64,000 bases of DNA from positions 1 to 64,000 of the forward strand of contig JAJPJX010000158.1 in assembly GCA_021324015.1 (NCBI GenBank). The letters are read 5' to 3'. Position numbers and translations under genes: made by a program. This DNA comes from Solibacteraceae bacterium. Lineage in GTDB: Bacteria > Acidobacteriota > Terriglobia > Bryobacterales > Bryobacteraceae. The notes under the pieces are model-generated. The model saw nothing but the letters and a program-made list of their open reading frames with translations, was not told where the DNA came from and ran no database searches. Positions 336 through 62,684 of this stretch are shown in pieces; the stretch's first letter is position 1, and each line of letters begins with the position of its first letter.

Positions 336-3998
<3,663 letters not shown>

Positions 3999-4071: not shown

Positions 4072-6531
4072 ATGTCCACGCTGCTGCAGGACGCCCGTTA
4101 TGCCGTCCGCGCCATGAAACGCAGCCCCGGCACGACCGCCGTGGCCGTTCTCGCCCTGGCCCTCGGCATCGGTGCCAATACGGCCATCTTCACGGTGGTC
4201 AACGCCGTCCTGCTCCGGCCGCTCCCCTATCCCGCCGCGGACCGCATGGTCTCCCTGGTGCGCACCTACCCCAATGGCTACGGCCCTTCGGTCTCCGTCC
4301 CCAAGTTCATCACCTGGAAGCAGGGCAACCCCCTGCTCGAAAACGTGGCGGTCTACGACTTCATGGGTCCCGGCGTCAGCATCAGCGGAGAAGGCGAGCC
4401 GGAACAGATCAAGGCCATTCGCGCCTCGGTGGAATTCTTCCCGCTGTTCCGCGTCGCCCCAGCCGCCGGCCGCTTCTTCAACGCGGAGGAAGATCACCCC
4501 GGCGGACCGCGCGTGGTGGTCATCAGTCACGGTCTGTGGCAGCGCCGCTTCGGCGCCGACCCCGGCCTGGTGGGCCGCACCGTGGTGCTCAGCGGCGAAC
4601 CCTACACCGTCATCGGCGTCACCGCCGCCGGCTTTGAGGCCAATCCGCCCGCGGATGTCTGGCTGCCTCTCCAGGCCGATCCCAACAGCGTCAACCAGGG
4701 CCATTACCTGCTCTGCGCCGGACGCCTCAAGCCGGGCGTCACGCTGGCCGCGGCGAATGCGCGCATGAAGGTGGTGGCCGAGGAGTTCCGCCGCCGCTAT
4801 CCCGATACCATGTCTAAGCAGGAAAGCGCCGGCGTCATGCCGATGCGCGACCTGGTAGTCGGCGATATCCGCCCGCTGCTGTTGATTGTGCTGGGCGCCG
4901 TCGCGCTGGTCCTGCTGATCGCCTGCGCCAATGTGGCCAACCTGCTGCTGGCCCGCGCGGCCGCCCGCGAACGGGAGATCGCCATCCGCACCGCGTTGGG
5001 CGCCGGCCGCGGACGCCTGGTCCGCCAGTTGCTCACCGAGAGTTGCCTGCTGGGCCTGGCCGGCGGCGTGCTCGGCCTGCTGTTGGGGCTGTGGGGGCTT
5101 CGCATTCTGCTGCTCTTCACTCCCGCCGGCCTGCCGCGGCTCGCCGAAATGACCCCCGGCTCGGGCCTGGACCTGCGGGTGCTGGGCTTCTCCCTGCTGC
5201 TGTCTCTGCTCACCGGCATCCTGTTCGGCCTGGCGCCCGCCGTGCAAGCCTCCCGCCCCGATCTGAACTCCACCTTGAAGGAGGGCATGGCCCGCACCAC
5301 CGCCGGTGTGCGCCACCTGCGCGCCCGCGGCCTGCTGGTGGTGAGCGAAATGGCGCTCGGCCTGGTGCTGCTGATCGGCGCGGGCCTGCTCATCCGCAGC
5401 GCCGCCTCGCTGCGCGGCGTCCAGCCCGGTTTCGATACCGCCCACGCCCTCACCTTCAAAACCGCCTTGAGCGGCGCGCGCTACTCCAACACCGCCTCGG
5501 TCACCACCTTCAGCCGCGCGGTGATCCAGCGCCTGGAGAGCCTGCCCGGCGTGCAGTCGGCGGCTAACGTCATCAACCTGCCCACCGAACCCGGACCGGA
5601 CCTCAATTTCGAGATCGCCGGCCGCCCCGCCTCCGCCGCCAACGCCACCGGTGACGAGCAGTGGCGCTTCATCTCCCCGCATTTCTTCAAGGCCATGGGC
5701 ATTCCCCTGCTGCGCGGCCGCGAATTCAGCGACACCGACACCGCCAAATCCCCCGCGGTGGTGATCATCAATGCAGCCTTGGCCCGCAAGTACTGGCCCA
5801 AGGAGGATCCCCTCGGCCAGCGCATCACCATCGGCAGGGGCCTGGGCAAGGAATTCGACGATCCCACGCGCGAAATCGTGGGCGTGGTGGGGAACGTGAA
5901 CGAGTTCGGCCTGGATCGCCAGCCGCCGGCCATCATGTACATTCCGGGCGCCCAGGTGAACGACGCCCTAACCGCCCTCGGCAACCGGATCCTGCCTACC
6001 GCCTGGGTGGCGCGCACCGCCGTGGACCCCATGACCCTGGCCGGCGCGGTGCGCCGCGAAGTCACCGCCGTGGATCGCCAGCAGGCCGTCTTCGAGTTTC
6101 GCTCCCTGGACCAGGTGATGGAGCGCGCGCTGGCCAACCGCCGCTTCATCCTGCTGTTGCTCAGCGTGTTCGCCGCCGTGGCGCTGACGCTGGCGGCCAT
6201 CGGCATCTACGGCGTGATGTCCTATGCCGTCGAGCAGCGCACCCACGAGATCGGCATTCGCATCGCGCTGGGCGCCGGCCAGGGTGACGTGCAGGGCCTG
6301 GTGGTGCGCCACGGCATGACCCTGGCCGCCATCGGAGTGGCCATCGGCCTGGCCGCCGCCTTCGGCCTCACGCGGGTGCTGGCCAACCTGCTGTTCGGCG
6401 TGAAAGCCACCGACCCGCTCACCTTCGCCGCCGTCGCCGCCGCCCTCTCCGCCGTGGCCTTAATCGCCACCTGGCTCCCCGCCCGCAGAGCCAGCCGAGT
6501 GGACCCCGTCATCGCTCTGCGGGGCGAGTGA
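4072..6531 (+). CDS. ADOP-family FtsX-like ABC transporter permease
   Basis: An 819-aa membrane protein of the acidobacterial duplicated-type permease family (MacB_PCD-FtsX twice). The open frame extends upstream into kgd, but I start at ATG 4072 because GGAGG lies at 4060-4064 and the protein then begins MSTLLQDARYAVR, the usual family start. The first membrane helix is at about 20-45, followed by a periplasmic MacB-like domain. Helices lie near 268-290, 325-348, 370-390 and 420-447, with a second periplasmic domain and a final set near 692-718, 748-768 and 784-806. The C-terminal LPARRASRVDP is typical of FtsX. No ATPase gene is adjacent, so it is an orphan permease. The substrate cannot be told; export of peptides, lipids or macrolides is the family guess. 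Confidence 0.93.
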   Translation: MSTLLQDARYAVRAMKRSPGTTAVAVLALALGIGANTAIFTVVNAVLLRPLPYPAADRMVSLVRTYPNGYGPSVSVPKFITWKQGNPLLENVAVYDFMGPGVSISGEGEPEQIKAIRASVEFFPLFRVAPAAGRFFNAEEDHPGGPRVVVISHGLWQRRFGADPGLVGRTVVLSGEPYTVIGVTAAGFEANPPADVWLPLQADPNSVNQGHYLLCAGRLKPGVTLAAANARMKVVAEEFRRRYPDTMSKQESAGVMPMRDLVVGDIRPLLLIVLGAVALVLLIACANVANLLLARAAAREREIAIRTALGAGRGRLVRQLLTESCLLGLAGGVLGLLLGLWGLRILLLFTPAGLPRLAEMTPGSGLDLRVLGFSLLLSLLTGILFGLAPAVQASRPDLNSTLKEGMARTTAGVRHLRARGLLVVSEMALGLVLLIGAGLLIRSAASLRGVQPGFDTAHALTFKTALSGARYSNTASVTTFSRAVIQRLESLPGVQSAANVINLPTEPGPDLNFEIAGRPASAANATGDEQWRFISPHFFKAMGIPLLRGREFSDTDTAKSPAVVIINAALARKYWPKEDPLGQRITIGRGLGKEFDDPTREIVGVVGNVNEFGLDRQPPAIMYIPGAQVNDALTALGNRILPTAWVARTAVDPMTLAGAVRREVTAVDRQQAVFEFRSLDQVMERALANRRFILLLLSVFAAVALTLAAIGIYGVMSYAVEQRTHEIGIRIALGAGQGDVQGLVVRHGMTLAAIGVAIGLAAAFGLTRVLANLLFGVKATDPLTFAAVAAALSAVALIATWLPARRASRVDPVIALRGE

Positions 6532-6664
6532 GCGCACGCCGCTGCCTCCCTGCCGTGAAGTAGAATTGAGTAGGCTGACGCCGGTGGCGCGGAAGCGGCA
6601 CGGCTCCTCCCGATCCGCGCAATGCTTCCTTCGTGCGGTCCCGGGGCCCTCATCAGGAGAGTTT

Positions 6665-8122
6665 ATGCAAACCGAAAGTTGTGACATCGGACTGATCGGT
6701 CTGGCTGTCATGGGCCAGAATCTGGTGCTGAATATGAACGACCACGGATACCGCGTGGCGGTCTTCAACCGCACGGTTTCCAAGGTGGACGACTTCCTGA
6801 ACCACGAAGCCGCCGGCACCAAGGTGGTCGGAACCCACTCGATTCCGGAACTGGTTCAGGCCCTGCGCAAGCCCCGGCGCGTGATGCTGATGGTCAAGGC
6901 CGGCGAGACCGTGGACCAGATGATCGGCAACCTTGTGCCGCACCTGGAGGCGGGCGACATCGTCATCGACGGGGGCAACTCGCACTATCCGGACACCAAC
7001 CGCCGCACCACGACGCTCGGCGGAAAGGGCATCCTGTTCATCGGCACGGGCGTCTCCGGAGGCGAGGAAGGCGCGCGCTTCAGCCCCTCCATCATGCCCG
7101 GCGGCAATCCCGCCGCCTGGCCGCACGTCAAGGAGATCTTTCAGGCCATCGCGGCCAAGGTGGACGACGGCTCGCCCTGCTGCGACTGGGTAGGCGAGAA
7201 CGGCGCCGGCCACTACGTCAAGATGGTCCACAACGGCATCGAGTACGGCGACATGCAGCTCATCTGCGAGGCGTACCACCTGCTGCGGGAAGGCCTGGGC
7301 CTCAGCGCCGCCGAGCTGCACGAAGTCTTCGCCGAATGGAACAAGGGCGAGCTGGACAGCTACCTGATCGATATCACCCAGCAGATTTTCACCAAGATGG
7401 ACGACGACGGCGCGCCGCTCATCGACAAGATCCTGGACACCGCCGGCCAGAAGGGCACCGGAAAATGGACCGGCATCAGCGCCCTGGAAACCGGCACGCC
7501 GGTCACCTTGATCGGCGAGGCGGTGTTCGCGCGCTGCCTCTCGGCCATGAAGGACGAGCGCGTGCGCGCCTCCGCGGTGCTCAACGGGCCGCAGGCGGCG
7601 CCCAATGCGGACCGCGCCGCTTTCATCGAGGATGTGCGGCGGGCCCTCTACTGCTCCAAGATCATCTCCTACGCGCAGGGCTACATGCTGATGCGCGAAG
7701 CCTCGCGGCAAGAGGGCTGGAACCTGAACTACGGCGGCATCGCCCTGATGTGGCGCGGCGGCTGCATCATCCGCAGCCGGTTCCTGGGCAAGATCAAGGA
7801 GGCTTTCGACAAGAATCCGCAGCTTTCGAACCTGCTGCTGGACGATTTCTTCCGCAAAGTGTTGGTCGATTACCAGCCCGCCTGGCGGCGCGCCATCGTG
7901 CAGGCCATCCAGTGCGGCGTGCCCACGCCGGCGTTCTCCACGGCGCTGGCCTTCTACGACGGTTACCGCACCGCGCGCCTGCCTGCCAACCTGCTGCAAG
8001 CCCAGCGGGACTTCTTCGGCGCGCACACCTACGAGCGCGTGGACAAGCCCCGCGGCCAGTTCTTCCACACCAACTGGACCGGCCGCGGCGGGCGCACGGC
8101 TTCAGGCACCTACAACGCTTGA
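6665..8122 (+). CDS. gnd: 6-phosphogluconate dehydrogenase, decarboxylating
   Basis: Oxidatively decarboxylates 6-phosphogluconate to ribulose 5-phosphate in the pentose phosphate pathway. At 485 aa the length is normal for the long (dimeric) form. The N-terminal Rossmann motif is GLAVMGQN (12-19), followed by VFNRT, whose Arg suggests NADP use. The catalytic region near 184-194 reads KMVHNGIEYGD, with Lys and Asn as in the family. The all-helical C-terminal domain is complete. ATG 6665 is chosen over an in-frame upstream start because AGGAGA ends 4 bases before it and the protein then begins directly at the Rossmann strand. A sugar-acid kinase follows after 60 bp, so the pair may be co-transcribed. 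A repeat copy sits between them. Confidence 0.96.
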   Translation: MQTESCDIGLIGLAVMGQNLVLNMNDHGYRVAVFNRTVSKVDDFLNHEAAGTKVVGTHSIPELVQALRKPRRVMLMVKAGETVDQMIGNLVPHLEAGDIVIDGGNSHYPDTNRRTTTLGGKGILFIGTGVSGGEEGARFSPSIMPGGNPAAWPHVKEIFQAIAAKVDDGSPCCDWVGENGAGHYVKMVHNGIEYGDMQLICEAYHLLREGLGLSAAELHEVFAEWNKGELDSYLIDITQQIFTKMDDDGAPLIDKILDTAGQKGTGKWTGISALETGTPVTLIGEAVFARCLSAMKDERVRASAVLNGPQAAPNADRAAFIEDVRRALYCSKIISYAQGYMLMREASRQEGWNLNYGGIALMWRGGCIIRSRFLGKIKEAFDKNPQLSNLLLDDFFRKVLVDYQPAWRRAIVQAIQCGVPTPAFSTALAFYDGYRTARLPANLLQAQRDFFGAHTYERVDKPRGQFFHTNWTGRGGRTASGTYNA

Positions 8123-12213: not shown

Positions 12214-13557
12214 TTACTGCACCGCCAGGAAGACGTTGGCGGGCGACTGGGCGCCGCTCACCGAGGCCACCACGGGCACGTCGCCCGTGACCCCGCTGGG
12301 CACGGTCACCGCAACCTGGTACAAGCCAACGGCGCCCGGGCTGAGCACGGCGGAGATGTATTGCGCCGTCACGCCGCCGATGGTGATCGTCGGGGCGGTG
12401 GTTACCTGGGGCGCTCCAGTCACGGGTTGGCCGGCCGGAACCGCGGGGTTGGTGGCCCCGAAGCCGGTCCCCCAGAGAATGATGACGTCGCCCGGCTTGG
12501 CTTTGACCGTGTTGGGCACGCCGGAAGGACCAATCAGGGTGTAGTCGGGATTGCGCTGCGCAATGGCGTAGTTCTTGTTGTTGGCCTGGAACATGAAGAA
12601 TGCCGGCGAGAAGGCCTGCATGTTGGCCGAGACCGTGTTGCTGCCGCTTCCGCTGACGGTGACCTGCACGTTCACCGTGCCCGTGCTGCTATCGGTGGGC
12701 GCCTGCACGTTGAGCTGTGTGGGGCTGATGTAGTAGACGAACGCCGGTTTGCCGTTGATGGAGACGCTGGTCCCATCCAGGCTGGTGGGCGCCTGGCCGT
12801 TGACAAAATCCTTGTCGGTCCAGGTCCGCGTATTGGTGGCCAGGTTGGAGCCGAAGATGGTCACCCACGAGCCGGATTGGATGGTGCTCTGAAACCCGGC
12901 GCCGTTCACCACTCCGTTGGGATCGGTGATGGTGGGAGTGGCGCCCGCGGCCGCCGGGGTCAGGGTGTAGTTGGCGGTGTAGACGTGATCCCCCGTGGGC
13001 TGCAAATCTCCGTTCACCGCGTTGCCCGCCACGTAGATCACAATGTTCCCCACGTTGGTGGAGGGCGGAGTCCAATCGAATTCGAAGCTGGAGACCACCG
13101 GGGAGGCCTGGTAGGACTTGAGCGTGTGCTCGATGTACTCCAGCGCGGGGCAGGAGGTTTGCGGCGGCACGCTGGCCAGATCGAAGCCGCACACGAGTTG
13201 CGTGTACCCATCCGCGCCAGGCGTAAAGGCGCCGGCCTGCGTGGTGGAGCTGCTCGCCAGACGCGCCGTCAACTGAAACCCGAAACGCTTTTGAGCCGAG
13301 TCGGTCACGGTGACCACCAGGTGCTGTTTCACCCCGGGAGTATAGGTCAGGCCTCCGGGAAAAGTGACGGAAACATTCCCCCCGAATGAATTGACGGTGC
13401 CGGTATGACAGCCAATCTGAATGCAGGTTTGTTCTCCAGGCACGCCGGCAGCTCCGCCCGGCGGGCCGTACTCATACGCGTAAAGCAAAAACGGAATCGC
13501 CGCCGCCACAGCCGCGGCTTTTCCCAAAAAAATTTTCCGTCTCCGATCCATATGCAT
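12214..13557 (-). CDS. exported protein with choice-of-anchor V-like and TIGR03437 domains
   Basis: A 447-aa secreted protein. After basic MDRRRK comes a signal or anchor helix (about 10-30). Residues about 40-185 look like a 'choice-of-anchor V' domain, starting at TCIQIGCHTG. Residues about 210-447 are the TIGR03437 region (GSWVTIFGSNLA, PTQLNVQAP, ILWGTGFGATNPAVPAG), a beta-rich C-terminal module expanded in Solibacter. The CX4CH motif could bind haem c, which would be unusual. An in-frame GTG at 13572 gives a longer form. ATG 13557 is chosen because AGGTGG lies 11 bases upstream. The function is unknown; surface adhesion is a guess. Confidence 0.8.
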   Translation of the reverse strand: MHMDRRRKIFLGKAAAVAAAIPFLLYAYEYGPPGGAAGVPGEQTCIQIGCHTGTVNSFGGNVSVTFPGGLTYTPGVKQHLVVTVTDSAQKRFGFQLTARLASSSTTQAGAFTPGADGYTQLVCGFDLASVPPQTSCPALEYIEHTLKSYQASPVVSSFEFDWTPPSTNVGNIVIYVAGNAVNGDLQPTGDHVYTANYTLTPAAAGATPTITDPNGVVNGAGFQSTIQSGSWVTIFGSNLATNTRTWTDKDFVNGQAPTSLDGTSVSINGKPAFVYYISPTQLNVQAPTDSSTGTVNVQVTVSGSGSNTVSANMQAFSPAFFMFQANNKNYAIAQRNPDYTLIGPSGVPNTVKAKPGDVIILWGTGFGATNPAVPAGQPVTGAPQVTTAPTITIGGVTAQYISAVLSPGAVGLYQVAVTVPSGVTGDVPVVASVSGAQSPANVFLAVQ

Positions 13558-52974: not shown

Positions 52975-54163
52975 CCTGCTGCTCGCGTGGGCGGCAGCCG
53001 CGGTGGCGCCGGTGGCGCAAATACCCGCCGGCACGGAAATCCAGCTTCGCCTGAAAACCAAGGTGGCCAGCAATGCCTCCAAGGCCAAGGACCCGGTGGA
53101 GGCGATCGTGCTCGAACCGGTGATGGTGAACGGGGCGTTCGCTATTCCGGCGGGCACGACCGTGCGCGGCGTGGTGGAGTCGGCCAAAGCCGCCGCGTCG
53201 GGCGATCGCGCGCAACTGGCGCTGAATTTCAACCAATTGGAGATGGGCTCCAAGAAGGTCAAGCTGGCCACGCTGCTCACCGCAGTGGACAACGCGCGGG
53301 AGCAGATCAACGACAAGGGCCAGATTCTGGGCATTCTCTCGAGCGAAACGATTTCGGGGGAACTGGACTCGGAAATCAGTAAGGTGACCGAGCGGTATTC
53401 CGGCCTGGGGGACATTCTGGGCGCGGCCAAAGGAGCCTTCCTGAAACCCGTGGACACCGAAATCGTCTACTCTCCCGGCGTGGAGCTGACCGTGAAGCTG
53501 ACGCAGCCGGTGACACTGAACGGCACGGCGCCTCCCGGGCCGGTGGCCAAACTGCAGCCGGTGGCGGACCAGGACGCGCTGGTGCAACTGGTGAACAGCC
53601 AGCCGTTTCAGACCGTCGCGCAGAAGCCGCCCAAGCCTTCGGACATGACCAACCTGATGTTCATCGGCTCGGAGGAACTGCTGCGCGCGGCCTTCGCCGA
53701 CGCGGGCTGGAGCGAGGCCGCCGCGCTGAGCACGCAATCCAAGCTGGAGACCTTCCGCGCCATCGCGGAGGTGCGCGGCTACAAAGAGGCGCCCGTCTCC
53801 GTGCTGCTGCTGGACGGGCAGGCGCCCAGCCTGGTCTTCGAGAAGCTGAACAACACCTTCGCGCAGCGCCACCATCTGCGGGTCTGGCGCCGCCCGGTCA
53901 GCTTCGAGGGCAAAGCCGTGTGGGTATGCTCGGCTACGCACGACACGGGCATCGCCTTTTCGGAGAAGGACCGAACCTTTATCCACAAGATCGACCCACA
54001 GATCGACCGCGAGCGGGCCAAGGTGGTGAGCGACCTGCTGCTGACGGGTAAGGTGCGCTCGTTGGCCGCCGTGGAGCGGCCGCTGGTGCCGCGCCAAAGC
54101 GCCAACGCCACCGGCGACCAGTTACTCACCGACGGCCAGATGGCGGTGGTGATTTTGCAGTAG
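52943..54163 (+). CDS. exported LssY_C-domain protein
   Basis: A 406-aa protein. The signal peptide (1-about 24, ending AVA-PV) is followed by a beta-rich module at about 25-190 (VPVAQIPAGTEIQLRLKTKV-type start) and a LssY C-terminal domain at about 215-380 with NLMFIGSEELL, FEKLNNTFAQRHHLRVWR, WVCSATHDTGIAFS and HKIDPQIDRERAKV. The LssY_C domain is a predicted membrane-associated module of unknown activity. ATG 52943, with GAGG upstream, lies inside the previous gene. A TTG at 52931 is a longer alternative. Confidence 0.82.
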   Translation: MVRSRNWLASSLLLAWAAAAVAPVAQIPAGTEIQLRLKTKVASNASKAKDPVEAIVLEPVMVNGAFAIPAGTTVRGVVESAKAAASGDRAQLALNFNQLEMGSKKVKLATLLTAVDNAREQINDKGQILGILSSETISGELDSEISKVTERYSGLGDILGAAKGAFLKPVDTEIVYSPGVELTVKLTQPVTLNGTAPPGPVAKLQPVADQDALVQLVNSQPFQTVAQKPPKPSDMTNLMFIGSEELLRAAFADAGWSEAAALSTQSKLETFRAIAEVRGYKEAPVSVLLLDGQAPSLVFEKLNNTFAQRHHLRVWRRPVSFEGKAVWVCSATHDTGIAFSEKDRTFIHKIDPQIDRERAKVVSDLLLTGKVRSLAAVERPLVPRQSANATGDQLLTDGQMAVVILQ

Positions 54164-54213
54164 GGGCTCTCACAAAGCGAGCCCGCCGCCACCAACTCCG
54201 GGATTTACCGGAG
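54164..54213 (+). other. tandem hairpins after the LssY_C gene
   Basis: Two perfect 6-bp stems: GGGCTC (54164-54169) with GAGCCC (54179-54184), and CTCCGG (54196-54201) with CCGGAG (54208-54213). No T-tract follows. They may weaken read-through into the next operon or stabilise the mRNA end. Confidence 0.3.
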
Positions 54214-54234
54214 CAGGTAATTCAACAAAAGTGG

Positions 54235-54263
54235 TTGATGTTAAGCCGGAATGATGATATAAA
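54235..54263 (+). promoter_or_regulatory. candidate promoter of the PatG-like cluster
   Basis: TTGATG (54235-54240) and TATAAA (54258-54263) with a 17-bp spacer. Transcription would start near 54270, leaving a leader of about 160 nt that contains an inverted repeat, GAGGGC (54285-54290) with GCCCTC (54309-54314). No gene is found in the leader. Confidence 0.5.
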
Positions 54264-54430
54264 GCCCAGTAATGAAATTCCGGTGAGGGCACCGGGCGTC
54301 TTTATTCAGCCCTCTCGGAAGGATCCCAGTTCCGTGCCGCGCACGCGACGGACGGCTGGGAGGCTCTTCGCCACACGCGCCGCGTACACTGGCATTTCAA
54401 GGATGACCAGGCACTTGAGAGGACCAGTTG

Positions 54431-55324
54431 GTGAGCGCCGTACATTCCGCCGCGGCTCTTGAGTTGATCAGGCTCACTCCGCTCATGGAGCGCACCACGG
54501 GACGGCCGGAGGTTCAGGTGGCGCTGATTGATGGGCCCGTCGCCATGAGCCATCCCGAACTGGAAATCCAGCATATCCGCGAAGTCAGCGGAATCCGGCC
54601 GGGCGCCTGCGCTCTCGCCGACAGCGCGGCTTGCATGCACGGAACGTTCGTGGCAGGCATCCTCAGCGCGAAACGGGGGAGCACGGCGCCGGCGATCGCT
54701 CCGGATTGCACACTGCTGGTTCGTCCGATATTCAGCGAAACGCCACCGCTCAATGGGCAGATGCCCAGCGCAGCCCCGCAGGAACTCGCGGAAGCCATCG
54801 TCGATTGCGTGAAGGCCGGCGCACGGGTGCTCAACCTGAGCGCGGCTCTCGCCGGGCCCTCCTCCAACGGCGAACGCGAACTGATCCTGGCGCTGGACTT
54901 CGCGGCCTCTCGCGGCGCTGTCACGGTCGCCGCCGCGGGAAACCAGGGAACGCTGGGAAGTTCCGCCATCACGCGGCATCCCTGGGTGATTCCTGTTGGG
55001 GCCTGTGATATGCGCGGCAAGCCCATCGGGGAGTCGAACCTGGGAAGCTCCATCGGGAGGCGCGGGCTGATCGCGCCGGGCCAAAACATCACCAGCCTCA
55101 GTACGAATGGAAGATCACGAGTCTTTGGTGGAACCAGCGCGGCGGCGCCTTTTGTGACAGGGACCATCGCGCTGCTCTGGTCGGAGTTTCCGGAGGCGAG
55201 CGCCGCCGAGGTGAAATCCGCTTTGATCCTGGCCGGCGGGGCTCGCCGCAGGACGGTGGTTCCACCGGTCCTGGATGCCGCGGCCGCATCGCGGACCCTG
55301 GCTGCCTCGCGAGCAGGACGGTGA
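54431..55324 (+). CDS. cytosolic S8 subtilisin-like protease, PatA/PatG-related
   Basis: A 297-aa subtilase without signal peptide. The triad is complete: D34 in VALIDGPV, H70 in MHGTFVAG, S236 in GGTSAAAPF; the oxyanion Asn is in AAAGNQG. The segment LTPLMERTTGRPEVQVALIDGPV (two parts here: helix then strand) is very like the start of cyanobactin proteases PatA/PatG, which cut leader or follower from precursor peptides in the cytosol. GTG 54431 is chosen, with GAGAGGA about 9 bases upstream; TTG 54428 and ATG 54485 are alternatives. The first gene of the cluster. Confidence 0.85.
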   Translation: MSAVHSAAALELIRLTPLMERTTGRPEVQVALIDGPVAMSHPELEIQHIREVSGIRPGACALADSAACMHGTFVAGILSAKRGSTAPAIAPDCTLLVRPIFSETPPLNGQMPSAAPQELAEAIVDCVKAGARVLNLSAALAGPSSNGERELILALDFAASRGAVTVAAAGNQGTLGSSAITRHPWVIPVGACDMRGKPIGESNLGSSIGRRGLIAPGQNITSLSTNGRSRVFGGTSAAAPFVTGTIALLWSEFPEASAAEVKSALILAGGARRRTVVPPVLDAAAASRTLAASRAGR

Positions 55325-55331
55325 GCACGCC

Positions 55332-55526
55332 ATGAAGAAGAGGCCTGCGACGCAAAGGGCTGAGCGCCAGCCGTATCAGGTTCGTCTACCGGGTTTTCTC
55401 ATCAAGGAGGAGACCGGCCTGGGGGACGCAGTCAAGCGCGCTACTTACGCAATGGGAATCAAGCCCTGCGGCGGCTGCGAGAGACGCGCTTCCGCCCTCA
55501 ACCGCTGGCTGGTTTTTTCCCGTTAA
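55332..55526 (+). CDS. small conserved-looking CGGC protein
   Basis: A 64-aa basic protein. The first part, QPYQVRLPGFLIKEETGLG, contains the LPGF motif that also opens the Cys-rich peptide at 56688. The second part, GIKPCGGCERRASALNR, has a CxxC followed by a basic helix. ATG 55332 lies 8 bp after the protease gene. It could be a RiPP precursor, a carrier or metal-binding protein, or a recognition element. I recall similar short PCGGC proteins only as uncharacterised. Confidence 0.65.
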   Translation: MKKRPATQRAERQPYQVRLPGFLIKEETGLGDAVKRATYAMGIKPCGGCERRASALNRWLVFSR

Positions 55527-55564
55527 TCGCTACCGTGAGGACGTTCACATAGAGGAGGCACGTT

Positions 55565-56470
55565 ATGGAAGCGGAAACTAAAGAAAATTCGCAGACGCAA
55601 ACAACTCCCGCCGTGACTGCGACAGTCGCCGGCAGCAGGCTTTCGCCGCAGGCATGCCCGACCTGCGGAACTGCACCAGCCGCCCACGGTGCGCCAGATC
55701 CAACTTCCTGGGTATACGCTATCGGCCACATCGAGGCCCGGTTCCCGACCATCTCCGTGGAAAAAGAGTTCGCGCAGGTGGCGGGCCGGGACAAGACCGC
55801 CGGGCTCACCGACCGGCAGGCGTTTCACGCCGTTCTTTCCAGATCCGAGAACCGCTACCTGGTTCGACAACTCTGCTGGGTAATGACCGTGGAAGGGCTG
55901 GAGACGTACCTGCTGCGGCCCCGTGACCCGGGGGATTACGACCTGCTGGCGGGAACCATACGGCCCAACCCCAGCCCCCTCGATCTGGACGTCGTGATCG
56001 GCATCCGCGGGCCCATCGCTCCGCCGGAGATGTGCAACGGTTTGATGATCCCGATCGTGACCTTCGACCAGATTTATTCCTTCGACCGTGACGTTCTCAT
56101 CAAAGCGATTCCCAAACCGGAGAAGACTTCCGCCAAGGACTTCGCGCCCGCGGCGGAGGAGCTGTTCGACCGCATCATGTACATGACCGACAACGCCGGC
56201 GCAACGGACGAACACCGCACCCTGAACTATCTCGCAGTTCGCTACCCGGCCATCTACGGCAAAGCGGCCGAGTATTTCGCGCAGAACTGTTCACTCACGG
56301 CCGTGGACGTACAAACGTCGACGCTCAGCGGCACGCGAAAAGTGCTGGAAGTGATCTTTTCCTTCACCAACCGCACTACAGACGTGCTGGACAAGTGCTT
56401 TGTGCGCGTCGACGCGACCGATGAGTTTCCCTTCCTCGTCACCAAGATATCGCCGTACTATGCCCGATGA
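55565..56470 (+). CDS. PatG C-terminal-region-like protein
   Basis: A 301-aa cytosolic protein. After a low-complexity N-terminus with a CPTC knuckle (about 31-34), it continues TSWVYAIGHIEARFPTISV, ENRYLVRQLCWVMTVEGLETY, LDLDVVIGIRGPIAPPEM and FDQIYSFDRD. The pattern agrees with the domain that follows the protease in cyanobactin PatG proteins, here free-standing. Its activity is unknown. GAGGAGG at 55551-55557 supports ATG 55565. It is the third gene of the cluster, 38 bp after the CGGC protein. Confidence 0.75.
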   Translation: MEAETKENSQTQTTPAVTATVAGSRLSPQACPTCGTAPAAHGAPDPTSWVYAIGHIEARFPTISVEKEFAQVAGRDKTAGLTDRQAFHAVLSRSENRYLVRQLCWVMTVEGLETYLLRPRDPGDYDLLAGTIRPNPSPLDLDVVIGIRGPIAPPEMCNGLMIPIVTFDQIYSFDRDVLIKAIPKPEKTSAKDFAPAAEELFDRIMYMTDNAGATDEHRTLNYLAVRYPAIYGKAAEYFAQNCSLTAVDVQTSTLSGTRKVLEVIFSFTNRTTDVLDKCFVRVDATDEFPFLVTKISPYYAR

Positions 56471-56687
56471 GTATAACCAAACAGGGGGGCCGACGTTACG
56501 GAGATACCGGGATTTCTCGCGGGCGCCTCCGTTTGGTCATGCGAACCGGCGATGCCGCGTGACCAGCGCACGCGGCGGTGCAATGTTCGCGACGGCGGAG
56601 TTACTTTGGCCGGCACGTGCATAGCGATAACTAAGCGGGCTATACAGAGTCAGGTTCCGTCAACTAACAAAGAGCGAGGTGTATACA

Positions 56688-57014
56688 ATGGCGTTACCAG
56701 GGTTTACCGCGGAAGCGGGCGTTTATCTTTCCCACGGGCAATATAGAGCCGTGATGGGCGGTGCGGGTGCTGCCGGGCTTGTACCAGCACTTCCGAGCTG
56801 TGCGGCTTGTGAATCGATTTGCGACAAGTGTTTCGATTGCCTCGACTCGGGAAAGCCGATGTCCAAGTGCCCCCCGTGCCGTGTGTGTTCACATTGCGGA
56901 TCCTGCGGGACGGGAGGAGGCGGAGGGGGGAGCCTCTTGTGCTGCGAGTTTTTGCAGAATCCGAACCCCGGGTTCAATTGTAACTGGTGCGGCCCCGAAC
57001 CGTTTCCACTTTAG
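56688..57014 (+). CDS. 108-aa cysteine-rich peptide, candidate precursor or metal-binding protein
   Basis: A 14-Cys peptide. The N-terminus, MALPGFTAEAGVYLSHGQYR, looks like a conserved leader and shares LPGF with the 64-aa protein. The core holds two Cys ladders: CAACESICDKCFDC and CPPCRVCSHCGSC (C-x2-C four times in a row), then a Gly-rich linker and CC and CNWC near the end. It may be a RiPP precursor cut by the PatG-like protease, a metallothionein-like protein or an iron-sulfur protein. AGCGAGGT precedes ATG 56688. Its last 4 bases overlap the end of the convergent RND gene. TATACA at 56641 is a possible -10 box. Confidence 0.7.
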   Translation: MALPGFTAEAGVYLSHGQYRAVMGGAGAAGLVPALPSCAACESICDKCFDCLDSGKPMSKCPPCRVCSHCGSCGTGGGGGGSLLCCEFLQNPNPGFNCNWCGPEPFPL

Positions 57015-60000
57015 GGCAAGCCGGGCCGAGAGAAGCCATTCGCGGGCTCGAAATCCCCCCAGCGCAGGGCCAGGGCGGGCAGCACCAGCAGATTCAGCAG
57101 CGTGGAGGTGACGAGGCCGCCCAGGATCACGGCGGCCATGGGGCCTTCGATCTCGCGGCCCGGCTCGCCGCTGCCGAGGGCCAGCGGCAGCAGCCCCAAG
57201 GCGGTGACCAGCGCGGTCATGAGGATGGGCACCAGGCGTTCGGAAGCGCCGCGTAGTGCGGCCTCCAGGCCCCAGGCGACGCTTTCTTCGCGCACCAGGT
57301 GCTGGTAGTGCGAAAGCAGCATGATCGAGTTGCGCGTGGTGATGCCGAACAGCGTAACGAAGCCCACCAGGGACCCCACCGTCATCCAGCCGCCGGTGAC
57401 AAAGACCGCGAGCACGCCGCCAACCAGGGCGAAAGGCAGGTTGAGCAGCACCAAGAGCAGGTTGCGGAGATTGCCGAAGACCACGGCCAGAAGCAGCACG
57501 ATGCCTACGGCGGCCATGCCGGAGGAGAGCAGGATCTCGCGCTGGGCGGCGGAGCGAGCCTGGGCCGCGCCGGTGAAGACCGGGTAAACGCCCGCGGGAA
57601 ATTGCACTCGGGACACGACCCGCCGTCGTGCCTCCTCCACGAAGGAGGTCAGATCGCGCCCGCGCACGTCGCAGGTGACGGCCTGACGGCGGCGGGCGCC
57701 ATCGTGCAGGATCATGAAGCGGCCGGCGCCTTCCTCCACGTCGGCCAGTTGGGCGAGCGGCAGGCGCATACCCGCGCCGTTGGAGAGCAGGAGCCCGCCC
57801 ACGCCTTCCGGGTCGTGCCGCGCGGCGTCCGCCAGGATCACTGCCACGTCGGAGACGCGGCCGGCCTCGTAGACCTGGGCCACCACGGATCCCTGGTAGG
57901 CAGTCTCCACGCCCTCCAGCACGTCCACGGGGCGAAAACCGAACTGCCGCAGTCGCTCCGGGCGGAGGCGCACGATGATCTGGGGCGCCCCGGGCGGCGA
58001 CTCGACCTGCACGTCCGCGGCGCCGCGCACCCCGGCGACCGCCTGCGCCACTTCGCGAGCCTTGCGGTCCAGCAGGTCCAGGTCGTCGCCGAAGATTTTG
58101 ATCACCACCTGCGCGGTGACGCCGGAGATGGTCTCTTCGATGCGCTCGGCCAGAAATTCGCGGATGGCAAAGGACACGCCCGGAAATTTGACCAGGGCCG
58201 CGCGAATCTCGTCCTCCACGCCCTCGGCTTCCTCGCCTGCGAGAGGCTGAAGCTCCACGTGGATCTCGCTGTAGTGCGTGCCCCAGGTGTCGTCGGCCTT
58301 TTCGGCGCGGCCGATCTGCTGGGCCACCGAGAGGATGTGCGGATTGCGCAGGAGTTCGCGAGTGACCTGCGCGCCCAGGCGGCGGGTCTCCTCCAGGGAG
58401 GTGCCCGGCACCGAGGACATATGCACGATGAAGTGGCCTTCGCGCAGGTCCGGCAGAAACGCGCCACCCAGGTACGGCACGGTGGTGAGCGCGGCCGCGC
58501 AGAGGACCAGGGCGCCGGCCAGCATCTCTACGGGGCGGCGCATGGCGGCCTGCATCAGGCGCCGGTAGACCTGCTTGAGGGCCGTGACGAAGCGCGGCTC
58601 GCGGGCTTGGCCGGCGGCGCGGGCGAGCATCAGGCTGCACAGCGCGGGGGTGAGCGTAAGGGCCACCCCCAGGGAGGCCAGGATGGCCAGCACATACGCC
58701 AGCGCCAGCGGGGCGAACAGGCGGCCTTGCACGCCCGACATGGTGAGCACCGGCAGAAACACCAGGGCCACTACGAAGGTGGCGTACACCACGGCGCTGC
58801 GCACTTCCAGGGAAGCCTCCAGCACCACCCGGAAGACGGGGCGCGGCTGTGGGCCGGCGCGATTCTCGCGCAGGCGGCGGAAGATGTTTTCCACGTCGAT
58901 GATGGCGTCGTCCACCACCTCGCCGATGGCGATTGCCAGGCCGCCCAGCGTGAGCGTGTTCAGGCTGACGCCCATGCGGTCCAGCACCGCGATGGCCACC
59001 AGCAGCGAGACCGGGATGGCGGTGAGGGAGATGAACGCAGTGCGCGCGTTGAACAGGAACAGGAACAACACCGCGGCTACCAGGATGCCGCCCAGCAGCA
59101 GAGAATGGCCAATGTTGCGGATGGAAACCTGGATGAAATTCGCGGGGCGGAACAGCCGGGGGTAGAGCGTGATTTGGGAGGCGGCCACCGCGGGGGCGAC
59201 TTCGGCCAGCGCCTGTTCGAGGGCCGCGGTCACATCCAGGGTGTTGGCGCGGAACTGGCTGGAGACCACCAGCATCACGCCAGGCTGCCCGTTGATGGCG
59301 GCATCGCCGATGCGCGGCTCGGGAGCCTCGACGACACGCGCCACGTCGCCCAGGCGGACGGTCATGCCGCCGGCGGCGCGCAGCGTGGCGCCCGCCAGCG
59401 ATGCGGGGCTGAGCGACTGGCCTTCGGTGCGCAGCACGATGCGCTGCTGCGGGGTCTCGACGAATCCGGCGCCGCGCACACCGGTGGAGGCGCGCGCCGC
59501 GGCCAGCACGTCGTTGATGGAGAGTCCCCAGGCCGCCAGGCGGTCCGGCGCCACCTGCACCTGCAACTGCCGCACTTCGCCGCCGAACACCACCACCTTC
59601 GCCACGCCGGGCACGGCCAGCAGGCGCGGGCGCAGGGTCCAGTCGGCGAAAGTGCGCAGCTCCATCAGGGAGCGCGTGCGCGAGGTCAGCCCCAGGGCCA
59701 GCACCATGCTGGCCGCGCTGGTGAGCGGCGCCATGGCCGGTGCGCTCACCTCGGCGGGTATTTGCGCGGCAGCCTCGGCCAGACGCTCGCCGACCACCTG
59801 GCGCGCGCGGAAGATGTCGGTGTCTTCCTGGAAGACGACGGTGACCACGGAGAGACCCTGGATGGACTGCGAGCGGATGGAATCCAGGCCGGCTACGCCA
59901 TTGACGGAAGATTCCACCGGACGGGTGACGAGTTGCTCGACCTCCTCCGGGGAGAGGCCCGGAGCTTCGGTCTGGATGACCACCTCCGGCGGCGCGAACT

Positions 60001-60121
60001 CCGGATAGACATCGTACTTGGCGTGCAAGGTGGCGTAAATGCCGTAGATCACCGCCAGGCAGGCCAGCGCGACGACCACGCCGCGGAAGCGCAGGGAGAA
60101 CTCCACCAGGCGGCGCAGCAT
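57011..60121 (-). CDS. CusA/CzcA-family RND heavy-metal efflux pump
   Basis: The 1036-aa inner-membrane pump of a tripartite system. The first helix is at about 12-30 and large periplasmic loops lie at about 40-340 and 560-860. The proton-relay region GEVVDDAIIDVENI (about 400-414) carries the paired Asp, and helices occupy 350-470 and 865-1030. The exact metal (Cu, Zn, Co, Ni) is not resolved. The open frame runs 680 bases into the adaptor gene, but ATG 60121 overlaps the adaptor TAA by one base (TAATG) and gives the family start MLRRLVEFSLRFR. Confidence 0.93.
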   Translation of the reverse strand: MLRRLVEFSLRFRGVVVALACLAVIYGIYATLHAKYDVYPEFAPPEVVIQTEAPGLSPEEVEQLVTRPVESSVNGVAGLDSIRSQSIQGLSVVTVVFQEDTDIFRARQVVGERLAEAAAQIPAEVSAPAMAPLTSAASMVLALGLTSRTRSLMELRTFADWTLRPRLLAVPGVAKVVVFGGEVRQLQVQVAPDRLAAWGLSINDVLAAARASTGVRGAGFVETPQQRIVLRTEGQSLSPASLAGATLRAAGGMTVRLGDVARVVEAPEPRIGDAAINGQPGVMLVVSSQFRANTLDVTAALEQALAEVAPAVAASQITLYPRLFRPANFIQVSIRNIGHSLLLGGILVAAVLFLFLFNARTAFISLTAIPVSLLVAIAVLDRMGVSLNTLTLGGLAIAIGEVVDDAIIDVENIFRRLRENRAGPQPRPVFRVVLEASLEVRSAVVYATFVVALVFLPVLTMSGVQGRLFAPLALAYVLAILASLGVALTLTPALCSLMLARAAGQAREPRFVTALKQVYRRLMQAAMRRPVEMLAGALVLCAAALTTVPYLGGAFLPDLREGHFIVHMSSVPGTSLEETRRLGAQVTRELLRNPHILSVAQQIGRAEKADDTWGTHYSEIHVELQPLAGEEAEGVEDEIRAALVKFPGVSFAIREFLAERIEETISGVTAQVVIKIFGDDLDLLDRKAREVAQAVAGVRGAADVQVESPPGAPQIIVRLRPERLRQFGFRPVDVLEGVETAYQGSVVAQVYEAGRVSDVAVILADAARHDPEGVGGLLLSNGAGMRLPLAQLADVEEGAGRFMILHDGARRRQAVTCDVRGRDLTSFVEEARRRVVSRVQFPAGVYPVFTGAAQARSAAQREILLSSGMAAVGIVLLLAVVFGNLRNLLLVLLNLPFALVGGVLAVFVTGGWMTVGSLVGFVTLFGITTRNSIMLLSHYQHLVREESVAWGLEAALRGASERLVPILMTALVTALGLLPLALGSGEPGREIEGPMAAVILGGLVTSTLLNLLVLPALALRWGDFEPANGFSRPGLP

Positions 60122-61380
60122 TATTCGGGGTTTTCCTCGCCCACCTGGATCTGGAACTTGAATTCCTCGGAGAGCAGGGTCTGCGCGCCGGCCACCACCA
60201 CGCGCGTGCCAGGGGGCGGCGCGGCGGCGGACCAGCCGCCGTCGCGCAGATCTTCGGGCGGGACTTCGCGGCGCGCGAAGCGGTCGCCGGAGAGCTGGAG
60301 ATAGACCCAGATGCGGCCCTGGTAGCGCAGCAGGGCGGCGCGCGGAACCGCCACGCCCCGGCGGCGCGCGCCCGCGAGCGGGAGGAAGGCGGTGACGGCG
60401 GCGCCGGGGCGCAGGGAGCGACCGGAATCCGAGAGGCGGAAGAGAAAGCCGCGGCCCTGCGTCAGCGGATCGATGGCGGGCGCGAGCGCCACCAGCCGGG
60501 CCGTGACGGGATGGTCTTCCTCGCCGAAAGCCACGACGCGGGCGGAGGGCGGCGCATCCGGTAGGCGCTCGCCGGCGGGCACGTACACGCGGGCGAGCAG
60601 GCCGTCGAAGCGGGCCAGGCGCAGCAGAGGCTGGCCTGCTTCCACGGATTCTCCGGGCTGGGCCACCAGTTCCACCACCTGGCCGCCGCGCGCGGCGCGC
60701 AGGGGCGCGGAGGCCGCCGGGCCGCTGGCCGAGGCGAGAGAAGCTTCGAGCAGGCGTGCGTTGCGGCTGGCCGCGGTGAGGCGCGCTTCTTCGCCTTTCC
60801 AACGGGCCTCGGCCTCCTCGACAGCGCGGTCGGACATGTTGCGGTTGTCGGCGTTGAGAGTGCGGGCGCGGTGGTAGGCGGCCTGGGCGGCGGCCGCCGA
60901 GGCGCGCGAGGCCTCCACGTCGGCGCGGGCCACGGCCAGCCGCTCGGTGAGGTTCACGCGCTCGGCGGGGGCCAAGCGCGGCTCGATGGAGCCGATCAGG
61001 TCGCCGTCACCCAGGGTCTGCCCCAGGGCCGGCCAAGCGTGGCTGGCGGCGAGTTGCAGCGTGCCAGCCACAGGCGCGCGCACCACGAAGCTGCGCGCGG
61101 GGTCTTCCTCCAGGCGGCCGTAGGCGGCTACTTCCGGCGCCAGCCAGGCTGCCTGGAGCGGACGGGTTTCGAGACCGATGCGTTGTTGGGTGGCGGGCTC
61201 CAAGCGGAGTACGGTCTCGCCCGCGGCGGTGCGCGAGAGGCGCGCGGCGCTCCGGATGGGCTGCTCCCCGCGCTCTTCTTCGGCGCGCGCGCCGCGGCGG
61301 GCCTGGAAGGCCCCCACCAGCAGGGCTGTCAGACCAGCGGCGGCGGCCGCGGCCAGGCCCCAGCGCCAGGCGCGCTTCAT
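60121..61380 (-). CDS. RND efflux periplasmic adaptor (HlyD/CusB family)
   Basis: A 419-aa membrane-fusion protein. An N-terminal helix or signal (about 8-25) is followed by a lipoyl half (FVVRAPVAGTLQL), a long helical hairpin (ADVEASRASAAAAQAAYHRA), the second lipoyl half (PLRAARGGQVVELVAQPGESV) and beta-barrel/MPL domains ending FQIQVG. It links the pump to the TolC-like channel. Its ATG overlaps the tolC-like TGA by 4 bases, and its stop overlaps the pump start by one. Confidence 0.92.
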   Translation of the reverse strand: MKRAWRWGLAAAAAAGLTALLVGAFQARRGARAEEERGEQPIRSAARLSRTAAGETVLRLEPATQQRIGLETRPLQAAWLAPEVAAYGRLEEDPARSFVVRAPVAGTLQLAASHAWPALGQTLGDGDLIGSIEPRLAPAERVNLTERLAVARADVEASRASAAAAQAAYHRARTLNADNRNMSDRAVEEAEARWKGEEARLTAASRNARLLEASLASASGPAASAPLRAARGGQVVELVAQPGESVEAGQPLLRLARFDGLLARVYVPAGERLPDAPPSARVVAFGEEDHPVTARLVALAPAIDPLTQGRGFLFRLSDSGRSLRPGAAVTAFLPLAGARRRGVAVPRAALLRYQGRIWVYLQLSGDRFARREVPPEDLRDGGWSAAAPPPGTRVVVAGAQTLLSEEFKFQIQVGEENPE

Positions 61381-62684
61381 TGTCCGGCGCCTCCTTCGAG
61401 CGGCTGACCGACAGCGTTTTCGAGCGCTCCGAGGGCGGTTTCAGCGCGGCGCAGGGCGTCGAGTTCAGCGCGCGCGCCGGCTAGGCGCTCGAGGCGCACG
61501 CCCGCCAGCGCCAGGCGGTCTTCTTCGCCCGCGCGGACGGCGCGCAGCACGGCGCCTTCGCGCACCTGCTGCAACTCGCGCAGGCGGCCAGCGGCTTCGG
61601 CCAGTTCGGCCAGCGCGCCGCGATAGGCGGCCACAGCCTGCTCCATCTCGCCGATAGCGCGGGCTTCGAGCGCCTCGCAACGGGCCTGGGCTTCGGCCCG
61701 ATGCGCCTCGGCCTCCGCGATGGGCCCGCGGTTGCGGTTGAAGACCGGCACCGGGAACGAGGGCCCGAAGGCGATCTTGTGATGCCCCTCGTCGAAAGAA
61801 TAGCCCGGGGTGAGCTGGATGTCGGGATACTGGCGGGCGACTTCGAGTTGCAGGGCGGCTTCCGCAGCGGCGTACTCGGCCAGGCTGCGGCGGATATCCA
61901 AGCGATTGAGCAAGCCGGCGCGCAACACGCGCGGCAGCGGCAGGGAGGCTTCGGCGGGCGGCGGTGGCAGGGAGGCGAAAGACGCTTGGGCCAGCGCGGC
62001 GGCTGGCAGGCCCAGGGCGGCGGCCAGCGCGGCCAGGCTTTCCGCGGCCTGTGTTTCGGCCGCACGCGCCGCCACCTCGACGGAGAGCAGCCCGGCGCGC
62101 TCGCGGTCCACTTCGGGGCGGGCGATCTCGCCAACGCGCAGGCGGGCCTCGAGCAGTTCCACGGATTCGCGGCGCCGAGCGGCCTCATCGCGCAGCAGAA
62201 CGAGCGAGCGGCGGGCCAGCAGGTGATCGAGCCAGGCCGCGCGCACGCGGCTGCGCACCCGCCAGGCGGTTTCCGCAACTTCCAGACGCGCCGCTTCGGC
62301 CTGCTTCTGCGCCGCCAGCGTGCGCCAGGCGCGCTTGCCGGCGGTTTCGATGGTGAACACCGGCTCGAAGTGCGCCACCACCGGAGATTCGGGCGAATCG
62401 GTGTAGCCGGCGCCCACCGAAATCGAGGGGTTGGGCTTGGCTGCGGCCGTAAGCACGGCGGCTTCGGCGGCGCGCAGGCGGGCGCGGGCCACGGCCAAGT
62501 CCGGACTGTTGGCGGCGGCCACCGCCGCGAGCGCCGGCAGGTCCAGCGAGGTTCCGGCGGGCTGGCGCAGAGTGCGGCTCCGGAACTCCCGCTCGATCTG
62601 CTCGGGCTGGAGCGGGTGGGCCTGATATTTCACGCAGCCGCAGCAGACCGCCAGCGCCAGCAGCGGAACTCCCACGCGACACAC
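61377..62684 (-). CDS. TolC-family outer-membrane efflux channel
   Basis: A 435-aa outer-membrane factor. A short signal ends in LALAVCCGC, a possible lipobox, so it may be a lipoprotein like CusC/OprM. Two long coiled-coil pairs are visible (e.g. PDLAVARARLRAAEAAVL and AEAEAHRAEAQARCEALE) with strand segments SISVGAGYTD and DIQLTPGYSFD between. GTG 62684 is the start with a weak ribosome site. It is the first gene of the tolC-hlyD-RND operon. Confidence 0.9.
   Translation of the reverse strand: MCRVGVPLLALAVCCGCVKYQAHPLQPEQIEREFRSRTLRQPAGTSLDLPALAAVAAANSPDLAVARARLRAAEAAVLTAAAKPNPSISVGAGYTDSPESPVVAHFEPVFTIETAGKRAWRTLAAQKQAEAARLEVAETAWRVRSRVRAAWLDHLLARRSLVLLRDEAARRRESVELLEARLRVGEIARPEVDRERAGLLSVEVAARAAETQAAESLAALAAALGLPAAALAQASFASLPPPPAEASLPLPRVLRAGLLNRLDIRRSLAEYAAAEAALQLEVARQYPDIQLTPGYSFDEGHHKIAFGPSFPVPVFNRNRGPIAEAEAHRAEAQARCEALEARAIGEMEQAVAAYRGALAELAEAAGRLRELQQVREGAVLRAVRAGEEDRLALAGVRLERLAGARAELDALRRAETALGALENAVGQPLEGGAGQ

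Follow-up and report, generated by a model that had tools for sequence, protein, structure and literature searches.

In a window of 64,000 nucleotides from a soil bacterium of the Solibacteraceae (contig JAJPJX010000158.1), a locus of four genes probably forms a maturation cassette for Cys-rich mini-proteins, similar to those of ribosomally synthesized and post-translationally modified peptides (RiPPs). The leader of a precursor would be cut off, the core cysteines would be paired, and a free-standing relative of the domain of unknown function (DUF) of PatG would act on the core. The original prediction had described a minimal RiPP-like or proteolytic maturation system outside the cyanobacteria, and this is supported by the leader, the gene set and the relations to PatG and PatA. 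All four proteins that it had listed are present at the locus, on the forward strand: a subtilase of the S8 family, a small protein with a CGGC motif, a protein of 301 residues and a peptide with 14 Cys. A constant leader, a variable core and genes beside maturation proteins are general marks of RiPPs, and all three are found here. The parts supported by sequence are the protein families, the fold, the gene sets, the leader, the Cys parity and the archaeal units of DUF and leaderless peptide.

The 301-residue protein (55565..56470) is truly related to PatG, as judged by profile and modelled fold. It consists of the PatG_D and PatG_C domains, with matches to PF18047 (4e-31, 108.2 bits, cut-off 27) and PF18065 (2e-30, 105.6 bits, cut-off 25.9). 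A profile of 15 relatives found the PatG DUF structure 4uvq as its sole significant match (9e-7). The AlphaFold2 model (mean confidence, pLDDT, 80) matched 4uvq in Foldseek with 1e-12, the next match being at 0.04, and structural comparison gave Z 19.3 and 3.3 Å over 244 residues, with the next Z at 6.5. The N-terminal tail (residues 1–45), modelled with low confidence, carries CPTC. The claimed resemblance to the region after the protease in PatG is thus borne out by Pfam, by profile and by fold; the profile comparison could have shown no similarity to PatG, an outcome that did not occur. A set of invariant polar residues, including R59, E66, R97, D209 and R226, is particular to the free-standing family, which also has a near-invariant C157. 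In four plasmid records the protein is annotated as hypothetical. According to the accessible part of PMC4259220, the structure of the C-terminal domain of PatA/PatG has been solved since 2014 and the domain has no known function.

The subtilase (54428..55324, 298 residues; PF00082, 3.5e-24) has the complete catalytic triad D35, H71 and S237, N172, and a DGPV segment, confirming what had been read from the sequence; neither a signal peptide nor a pro-domain was apparent by eye. Its best solved relatives are PatA protease domains (8e-29 to 3e-28), compared with about 1e-17 for ordinary subtilisins and 4e-12 for the PatG macrocyclase, whose alignment starts only at the histidine. PatA protease domains were also the top PDB match in a profile search. 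The spacing between the aspartate and the histidine is 36 in 13 of 14 relatives and 30 in one, and leaves no room for the PatG insert. By these sequence comparisons the enzyme is PatA-like and not PatG-macrocyclase-like, so that of the earlier label "PatA/PatG-like" the first half stands and the second falls. The TIGR03895 cut-off (421 bits) is not reached (102 and 20 bits), protease and DUF being unfused and encoded by separate genes; the pair is best described as like PatA cut in two. We propose the subtilase as the leader protease.

A PatA-like protease and a PatG DUF could also be what is left of a cyanobactin-like macrocycle pathway after loss of its other genes. This is very improbable, because the cassette lacks a PatG-type macrocyclase, its one subtilase being PatA-like, and neither YcaO nor another enzyme recurs beside it (no YcaO family in at least 3 of 20 loci; whole genomes were not searched for YcaO). 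By eye, leaders and cores differ from PatE. The accessible text of PMC10885120 gives G(L/V)E(A/P)S and AYDG as sites of PatE-like cyanobactin precursors, and neither was found in the precursors that we read by eye. With macrocyclase and PatE sites both missing, the cassette is, on its sequences, not a cyanobactin cassette.

The substrate would be the 14-Cys protein (56688..57014, 108 residues from the ATG at 56688; the list of open reading frames (ORFs) gives a GTG at 56679 and 111 residues). On its leader family and Cys content, this protein is a precursor. Such precursors begin with M-x-(L/M/I)-P-G-F-T-A-E-x-S-L, with variations, and each cassette has one to several small genes of this kind. 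The 33 aligned peptides have in common a leader from P-G-F-T-A-E to V-x-P-Q, followed by a variable core; a V-x-P-Q-like motif stands about 27–34 residues past the P in 77 of 99 precursors, and the sequence beyond differs greatly. In the window peptide, leader alignment and the parity scans described below predict a leader of residues 1–34 (MALPGFTAEAGVY...LVPA, 56688..56789), with its end as the putative cleavage point, and a core of residues 35–108 (56790..57011) that would hold all 14 Cys, an even number.

A profile of the leader matched the window peptide with 1.1e-11 in a search of its genome, the peptide being itself one of the 33 rows. Of 16 genomes or records with a cassette, 15 had precursors by this profile, most of them located at the cassette; Nitrosospira also had unlinked copies. 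This search is partly circular, as most of the genomes supplied rows, and only G302 (locus L014) and the orphans of G300 are independent. Among 125 Nitrosomonadaceae it had hits in 17, of which 16 were new and independent of the profile rows, and 15 of these 16 had DUF and S8 in the fetched locus. Pfam at E 0.1 found nothing in six precursors or peptides tested, nor in the L063 peptide. The cassette opens a large set of natural Cys-rich mini-proteins whose leader is probably cleavable. Some cores (L007, L011, L061, L137) have long glycine runs between Cys-rich halves, as does the window precursor. A precursor of 287 residues (L014:10865-11725) has 44 Cys past a PGF-type leader, in CC..G..CC repeats that look granulin-like by eye, as does the C-terminal end of another (L009:11277-11675); Pfam was null for both.

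Cysteines make up 12% of the core and 0.8% of the leader in the first 37 precursors. In these the number of Cys after residue 33 was even in 37/37 (range 2 to 44), and six had an odd total owing to a leader cysteine. The prediction of an even core held for 5/6 precursors in one new test set and for 51/56 unique ones in a larger set. Among control ORFs (n=365), 42% had an odd count. Counted by core family, 36/41 were all even, 3 all odd and 2 mixed (p 4e-5 against 58% even in the control). We also moved the cut along 99 unique precursors (100 minus one duplicate; PGF stretches of 20 residues in L004 and 33 residues in L007 were left out as too short). Odd counts were 16 without a cut; for cuts placed past the P of PGF they were 7–9 at 21–30 residues, 6 at 33, 17 at 36 and 47 at 57. 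Anchored on the motif, odd counts were 5/77 directly after the V-x-P-Q-like motif and 22/77 two residues further. This sharp rise suggests that the removed part ends at most about one residue after P-Q. The even counts suggest that the cysteines pair, probably as disulfides in the simplest case, as far as sequences can tell. The L021 peptide, scored as odd (11) under the fixed cut, has 12 Cys after residue 33, 14 in total and almost no leader. An even Cys number past V-x-P-Q is also a simple sequence rule for finding and trimming further precursors.

Even counts are compatible with other pairwise links too, and the DUF protein might be an enzyme that installs a Cys crosslink other than a disulfide, which would make this a RiPP class with new chemistry. 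The invariant polar residues and C157, unlike the PatA-like DUF of a fused protein (G051), and the occurrence of the DUF in anaerobic archaea are in keeping with this. We consider it unlikely, since the one domain that the fold matches has no known activity according to the accessible text of PMC4259220, and no cofactor motif was noticed in the protein, although no systematic search for one was made. Cys-rich cores could alternatively be metal-binding, metallothionein-like peptides, with the metal handled by the DUF and CGGC proteins. The PatG-DUF bound zinc in the crystal and the window cassette adjoins an RND efflux operon, but the accessible text of PMC4259220, which reports the zinc, describes its ligands as poorly conserved, the efflux neighbour does not recur among 20 loci, and four-cysteine sites are ill-suited to the 2, 6, 10 or 14 Cys of many cores. 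A role in metal binding is thus improbable.

The CGGC protein (55332..55526, 64 residues, ATG at 55332) is a near-constant accessory rather than a clear precursor, and is kept in 18 of 19 bacterial loci. Thus, the view that both small proteins are precursors holds for the 14-Cys protein, which belongs to the leader family, and fails for this one. Its family alignment reads ...RLPGF...GLGD..KR.T...GIKPCGGC..RA..LN. The LPGF reported earlier for both small proteins is there, and a PGF-type motif is conserved across both families. It is plausible that this motif serves a shared recognition, although Nitrosospira that lack the CGGC protein and keep PGF leaders weaken the idea. No Pfam or NCBIfam family was found with 14 members tested, and the AlphaFold2 model (pLDDT 79) had no Foldseek match in the PDB. 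The protein weakly matches the phage family phrog_32048 (5e-6) and Nonlabens phage proteins (3e-4); what they have in common with it is the GLGD...CGGC..R...LN segment, with the PGF part outside the match. At E 1e-3, CGGC was found in 4 records of 72,556 plasmids, the same four that hold DUF relatives of 46–68% identity. The match is weak, perhaps to a broken gene, in 2 (L157, L162) of the 13 CGGC-bearing Nitrosomonadaceae loci described below.

The cassette is a small, rare gene set present in several phyla. A search for relatives found 12, from records titled Terriglobia, Acidobacteriaceae, a deltaproteobacterium, Nitrotoga, Methylobacter, Nitrosospira, Electrothrix, Methanosaeta and four actinobacteria. 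The gene set occurs in 4/297 genomes of the window's phylum (three of the split type, including the window's own, and one fused), in 1/398 genomes of the Methylobacter phylum and in 2/296 of the Saccharopolyspora phylum, the centre genome being counted in both of the latter. Five plasmids had DUF relatives. No DUF match was found in phages, and among viral contigs 66 stretches matched a pattern, with no relative among them. In 20 loci (19 bacterial, one archaeal) with flanks of up to 10 kb, three of them (L006, L011, L012) contigs of 3–4 kb, the DUF was present in 20/20, S8 in 17 and CGGC in 18; in the 19 bacterial loci the DUF stood with the subtilase in 17 and with CGGC in 18. Apart from precursors and frames overlapping cassette genes, no further family was found in at least 3 of the 20 loci, the rest occurring in two. 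Protease and small proteins therefore occur together from Acidobacteriota to Streptomyces plasmids, and the neighbourhoods without such co-occurrence that would have told against the original prediction were not what we found. A further 40 Nitrosomonadaceae loci, fetched around leader hits, include 15 with DUF and S8, 13 of them with CGGC; the other 25 have no cassette genes and are sites of unlinked precursors. Gene order varies (CGGC, DUF, precursor, S8 in G725). On a Sinorhizobium plasmid the gene after the cassette is annotated as an omptin outer-membrane protease (L019:11316-12467), with no recurrence seen in the 20 loci.

Rarity, and an occasional place on a plasmid beside a transposase (one copy is flanked by a Tn3 transposase and a recombinase), might point to a module for defence or toxin immunity, with Cys-rich effectors that the protease would activate. 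The subtilase does match the generic PADLOC subtilase and IetS models, but no PADLOC model matched the DUF, CGGC or precursor proteins at E 0.01, and several differing precursors per cassette together with orphan precursors suit secreted peptides better. Such a module is therefore hardly probable.

In archaea the DUF occurs in a pared-down form. The class of the Methanosaeta locus (L013) has the DUF in 6/149 genomes, one of them with 7 copies, and the same 6 are found among 50 genomes of its family (Methanotrichaceae). We examined 13 of 15 archaeal copies, leaving out the second G998 copy (contig end) and the G1039 C35 fragment; the first copy of L086, L088 and L089 are partial or in two frames. 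In 13/13 a peptide with 6 or 8 Cys lies 22–29 nt downstream. These peptides have 39–71 residues, no leader, the first Cys at residue 3–6 and a GAGGTG-type ribosome binding site (RBS) in front; they were chosen by RBS and Cys content, not by parity, and because of kinship among several of them the 13 do not count as independent. S8, CGGC and leader were absent from 7 archaeal loci at E 0.01 or better. A whole-genome search, made for the L013 genome alone, found no CGGC and only weak subtilase hits of another type. Because the archaeal DUF stands without S8, CGGC and leader and yet precedes a Cys-rich peptide, the DUF seems, from these gene sets, to go with the Cys-rich product and the subtilase with the leader. 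DUF paralogues that are 97% alike adjoin peptides that are 36% alike, as would be seen if a single maturation factor served substrates that change. A tree of 30 DUF proteins has 13 of 27 inner branches open and a very long outgroup branch; no ancestry is claimed for the archaeal rows, whose place it leaves open.

Several other observations were made around the archaeal pairs. L013 carries, close to the contig end, a second copy of the DUF that is spread over two frames (12535-13183), and L088 has a short weak DUF remnant (3139-3357). In L084 an IS21-like transposase pair, recognized by eye, lies between two DUF–peptide pairs (5039-7059). Pairs in L084, L085, L013, L086 and L088 often adjoin genes for secreted-looking proteins with WNKTFGG...GGYII or TPR repeats, which may be no more than a family expanded locally. 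We considered and dropped a connection with the disulfide-held sheath of Methanothrix; in the accessible text of PMC11576556 nothing relates the archaeal peptides to the sheath.

Bacterial variants show which parts are retained. A Streptomyces plasmid without S8 (L021) has kept the CGGC gene and a Cys-rich peptide, its leader shrunk to IPGF. An 8-Cys peptide comes after the fused S8–DUF protein of G051, a single case. In a Pseudonocardiales locus without S8 (L017:11741-15754) the CGGC gene is followed by genes for a 565-residue protease that by eye resembles a sedolisin, for a precursor-like protein with CCSCPCC at its end and for an apparent radical S-adenosylmethionine enzyme of the B12 type, perhaps a neighbouring RiPP cluster.

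In the mechanism that we propose, the precursor consists of a variable core and, in front of it, a leader that has PGFTAE close to its start and V-x-P-Q close to its end. The core cysteines would pair, most likely as disulfides, and the PatA-like subtilase would cut off the leader at V-x-P-Q or close by. Acting on or holding the Cys-rich core, the free-standing PatG DUF protein would be a folding, oxidation or escort factor, and the CGGC protein, with its PGF motif in common, would be an accessory of the bacterial, leader-bearing form. The product would be released or exported by some further route.

A number of observations weigh against this maturation cassette. A reducing cytosol, most of all that of a strict anaerobe, is not where disulfides would be expected, and no exporter recurs among the 20 loci. 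Many of the invariant polar residues (R59, E66, R97, D209, R226) are different in G051, whose fused protein is PatA-like, and therefore the free DUF may not work like that of PatG. By nuclear magnetic resonance, Mann et al. 2014 detected no interaction between PatG-DUF and linear PatE' (accessible text of PMC4259220); this speaks against simple precursor binding by PatG-DUF and does not exclude a Cys-rich core as its partner here. L017 has a leader and no adjoining S8 of the cassette family, with only another subtilase type elsewhere, and is the exception to the tie between subtilase and leader. One Nitrosospira group (L010, L130, L143) lacks CGGC and retains leaders. Among NCBIfam models, that of the type VII secretion mycosins gives the subtilase the higher score, 131 bits against 102 bits for PatA/PatG, each far under the cut-off of its model. 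The parity control is rough, consisting of six-frame ORFs of at least 200 residues and at least 4 Cys, some spurious or related. Parity also has exceptions. The five odd cases of the larger test set are three orthologues with 11 Cys that lie away from a cassette, G1507 with an extra Cys inside V-C-P-Q, and a copy in G1495 that, compared with G1430, runs over two frames (a frameshift); L090:378181, with 3 Cys, was not explained by a frameshift or otherwise.

At the locus itself, purine-rich RBS-like stretches were seen by eye upstream of the subtilase gene (GAGAGGA), the 301-residue gene (GAGGAGG) and the precursor gene (GCGAGGTG), and only GGACGGTGAG upstream of the CGGC gene. The genes had been called a promoter-led run, a claim that found no support: a sigma-70 scan of 54100-57150 found 0 sites with 0.6 expected. 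With 217 bases between the 301-residue gene and the precursor gene, a single transcript is only a possibility. A 75-residue ORF without a Pfam family opens at 54235, where the original prediction had begun the locus, and a terminator-like hairpin lies just inside, at 54279-54296. The left flank holds ordinary genes, for a DegT aminotransferase, a TIM-barrel protein and an LssY_C protein. On the right, the resistance-nodulation-division (RND) efflux operon (ACR_tran, HlyD_3, OEP; 57011-62684, reverse strand) converges with the cassette.

In the literature, neither PGFTAE nor PF18065 was found in the text searched, whose coverage excludes most subscription papers and preprints, and no description of the cassette was found among the matches listed; novelty in print is therefore unproven. 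What stands out is that the DUF is free-standing, without other cyanobactin enzymes adjoining; each full locus that we examined has it beside Cys-rich peptides, and archaea have it in units of two genes. Its function is thus testable with two small genes, and the pared-down archaeal relative suggests what the PatG DUF may work on. More tentatively, and somewhat short of an even chance in our view, the free-standing PatG DUF may be a Cys-rich peptide maturation factor in two forms, a bacterial one with leader and protease and a bare archaeal one, with the DUFs of PatA and PatG as its descendants or cousins. If so, this kinship would explain why DUFs persist in cyanobactin pathways, and the archaeal DUF with its leaderless peptide would rank with the smallest conceivable units of peptide maturation.

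In some known RiPP families, such as the prochlorosins, one enzyme serves many precursors and the leader is constant. Set beside these by description only, our system is alike in its constant leader, its hypervariable core and its several precursors per cassette, some unlinked; it differs in that no known RiPP modifying enzyme recurs and the product is probably disulfide-rich. The likeness to the cyanobactin leader protease PatA (PDB 4h6v, 3zxx) lies in the subtilase domain, the best PDB hit, and in the DGPV segment. PatA carries the same kind of DUF C-terminal to its protease (accessible text of PMC4259220), whereas here the two are in separate genes, with no cyanobactin cleavage motif, macrocyclase or YcaO seen adjoining. 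With the PatG DUF (4uvq, PF18047/PF18065) the 301-residue protein has in common the profile match and the fold over 244 residues; it differs in being free-standing, in its tie to Cys-rich peptides, in its own invariant polar residues and, in archaea, in having no adjoining protease. In summary, the system probably works like a RiPP with a PatA-type leader protease, and it is not a cyanobactin; it may be a new variant, and the archaeal form may be more than that.

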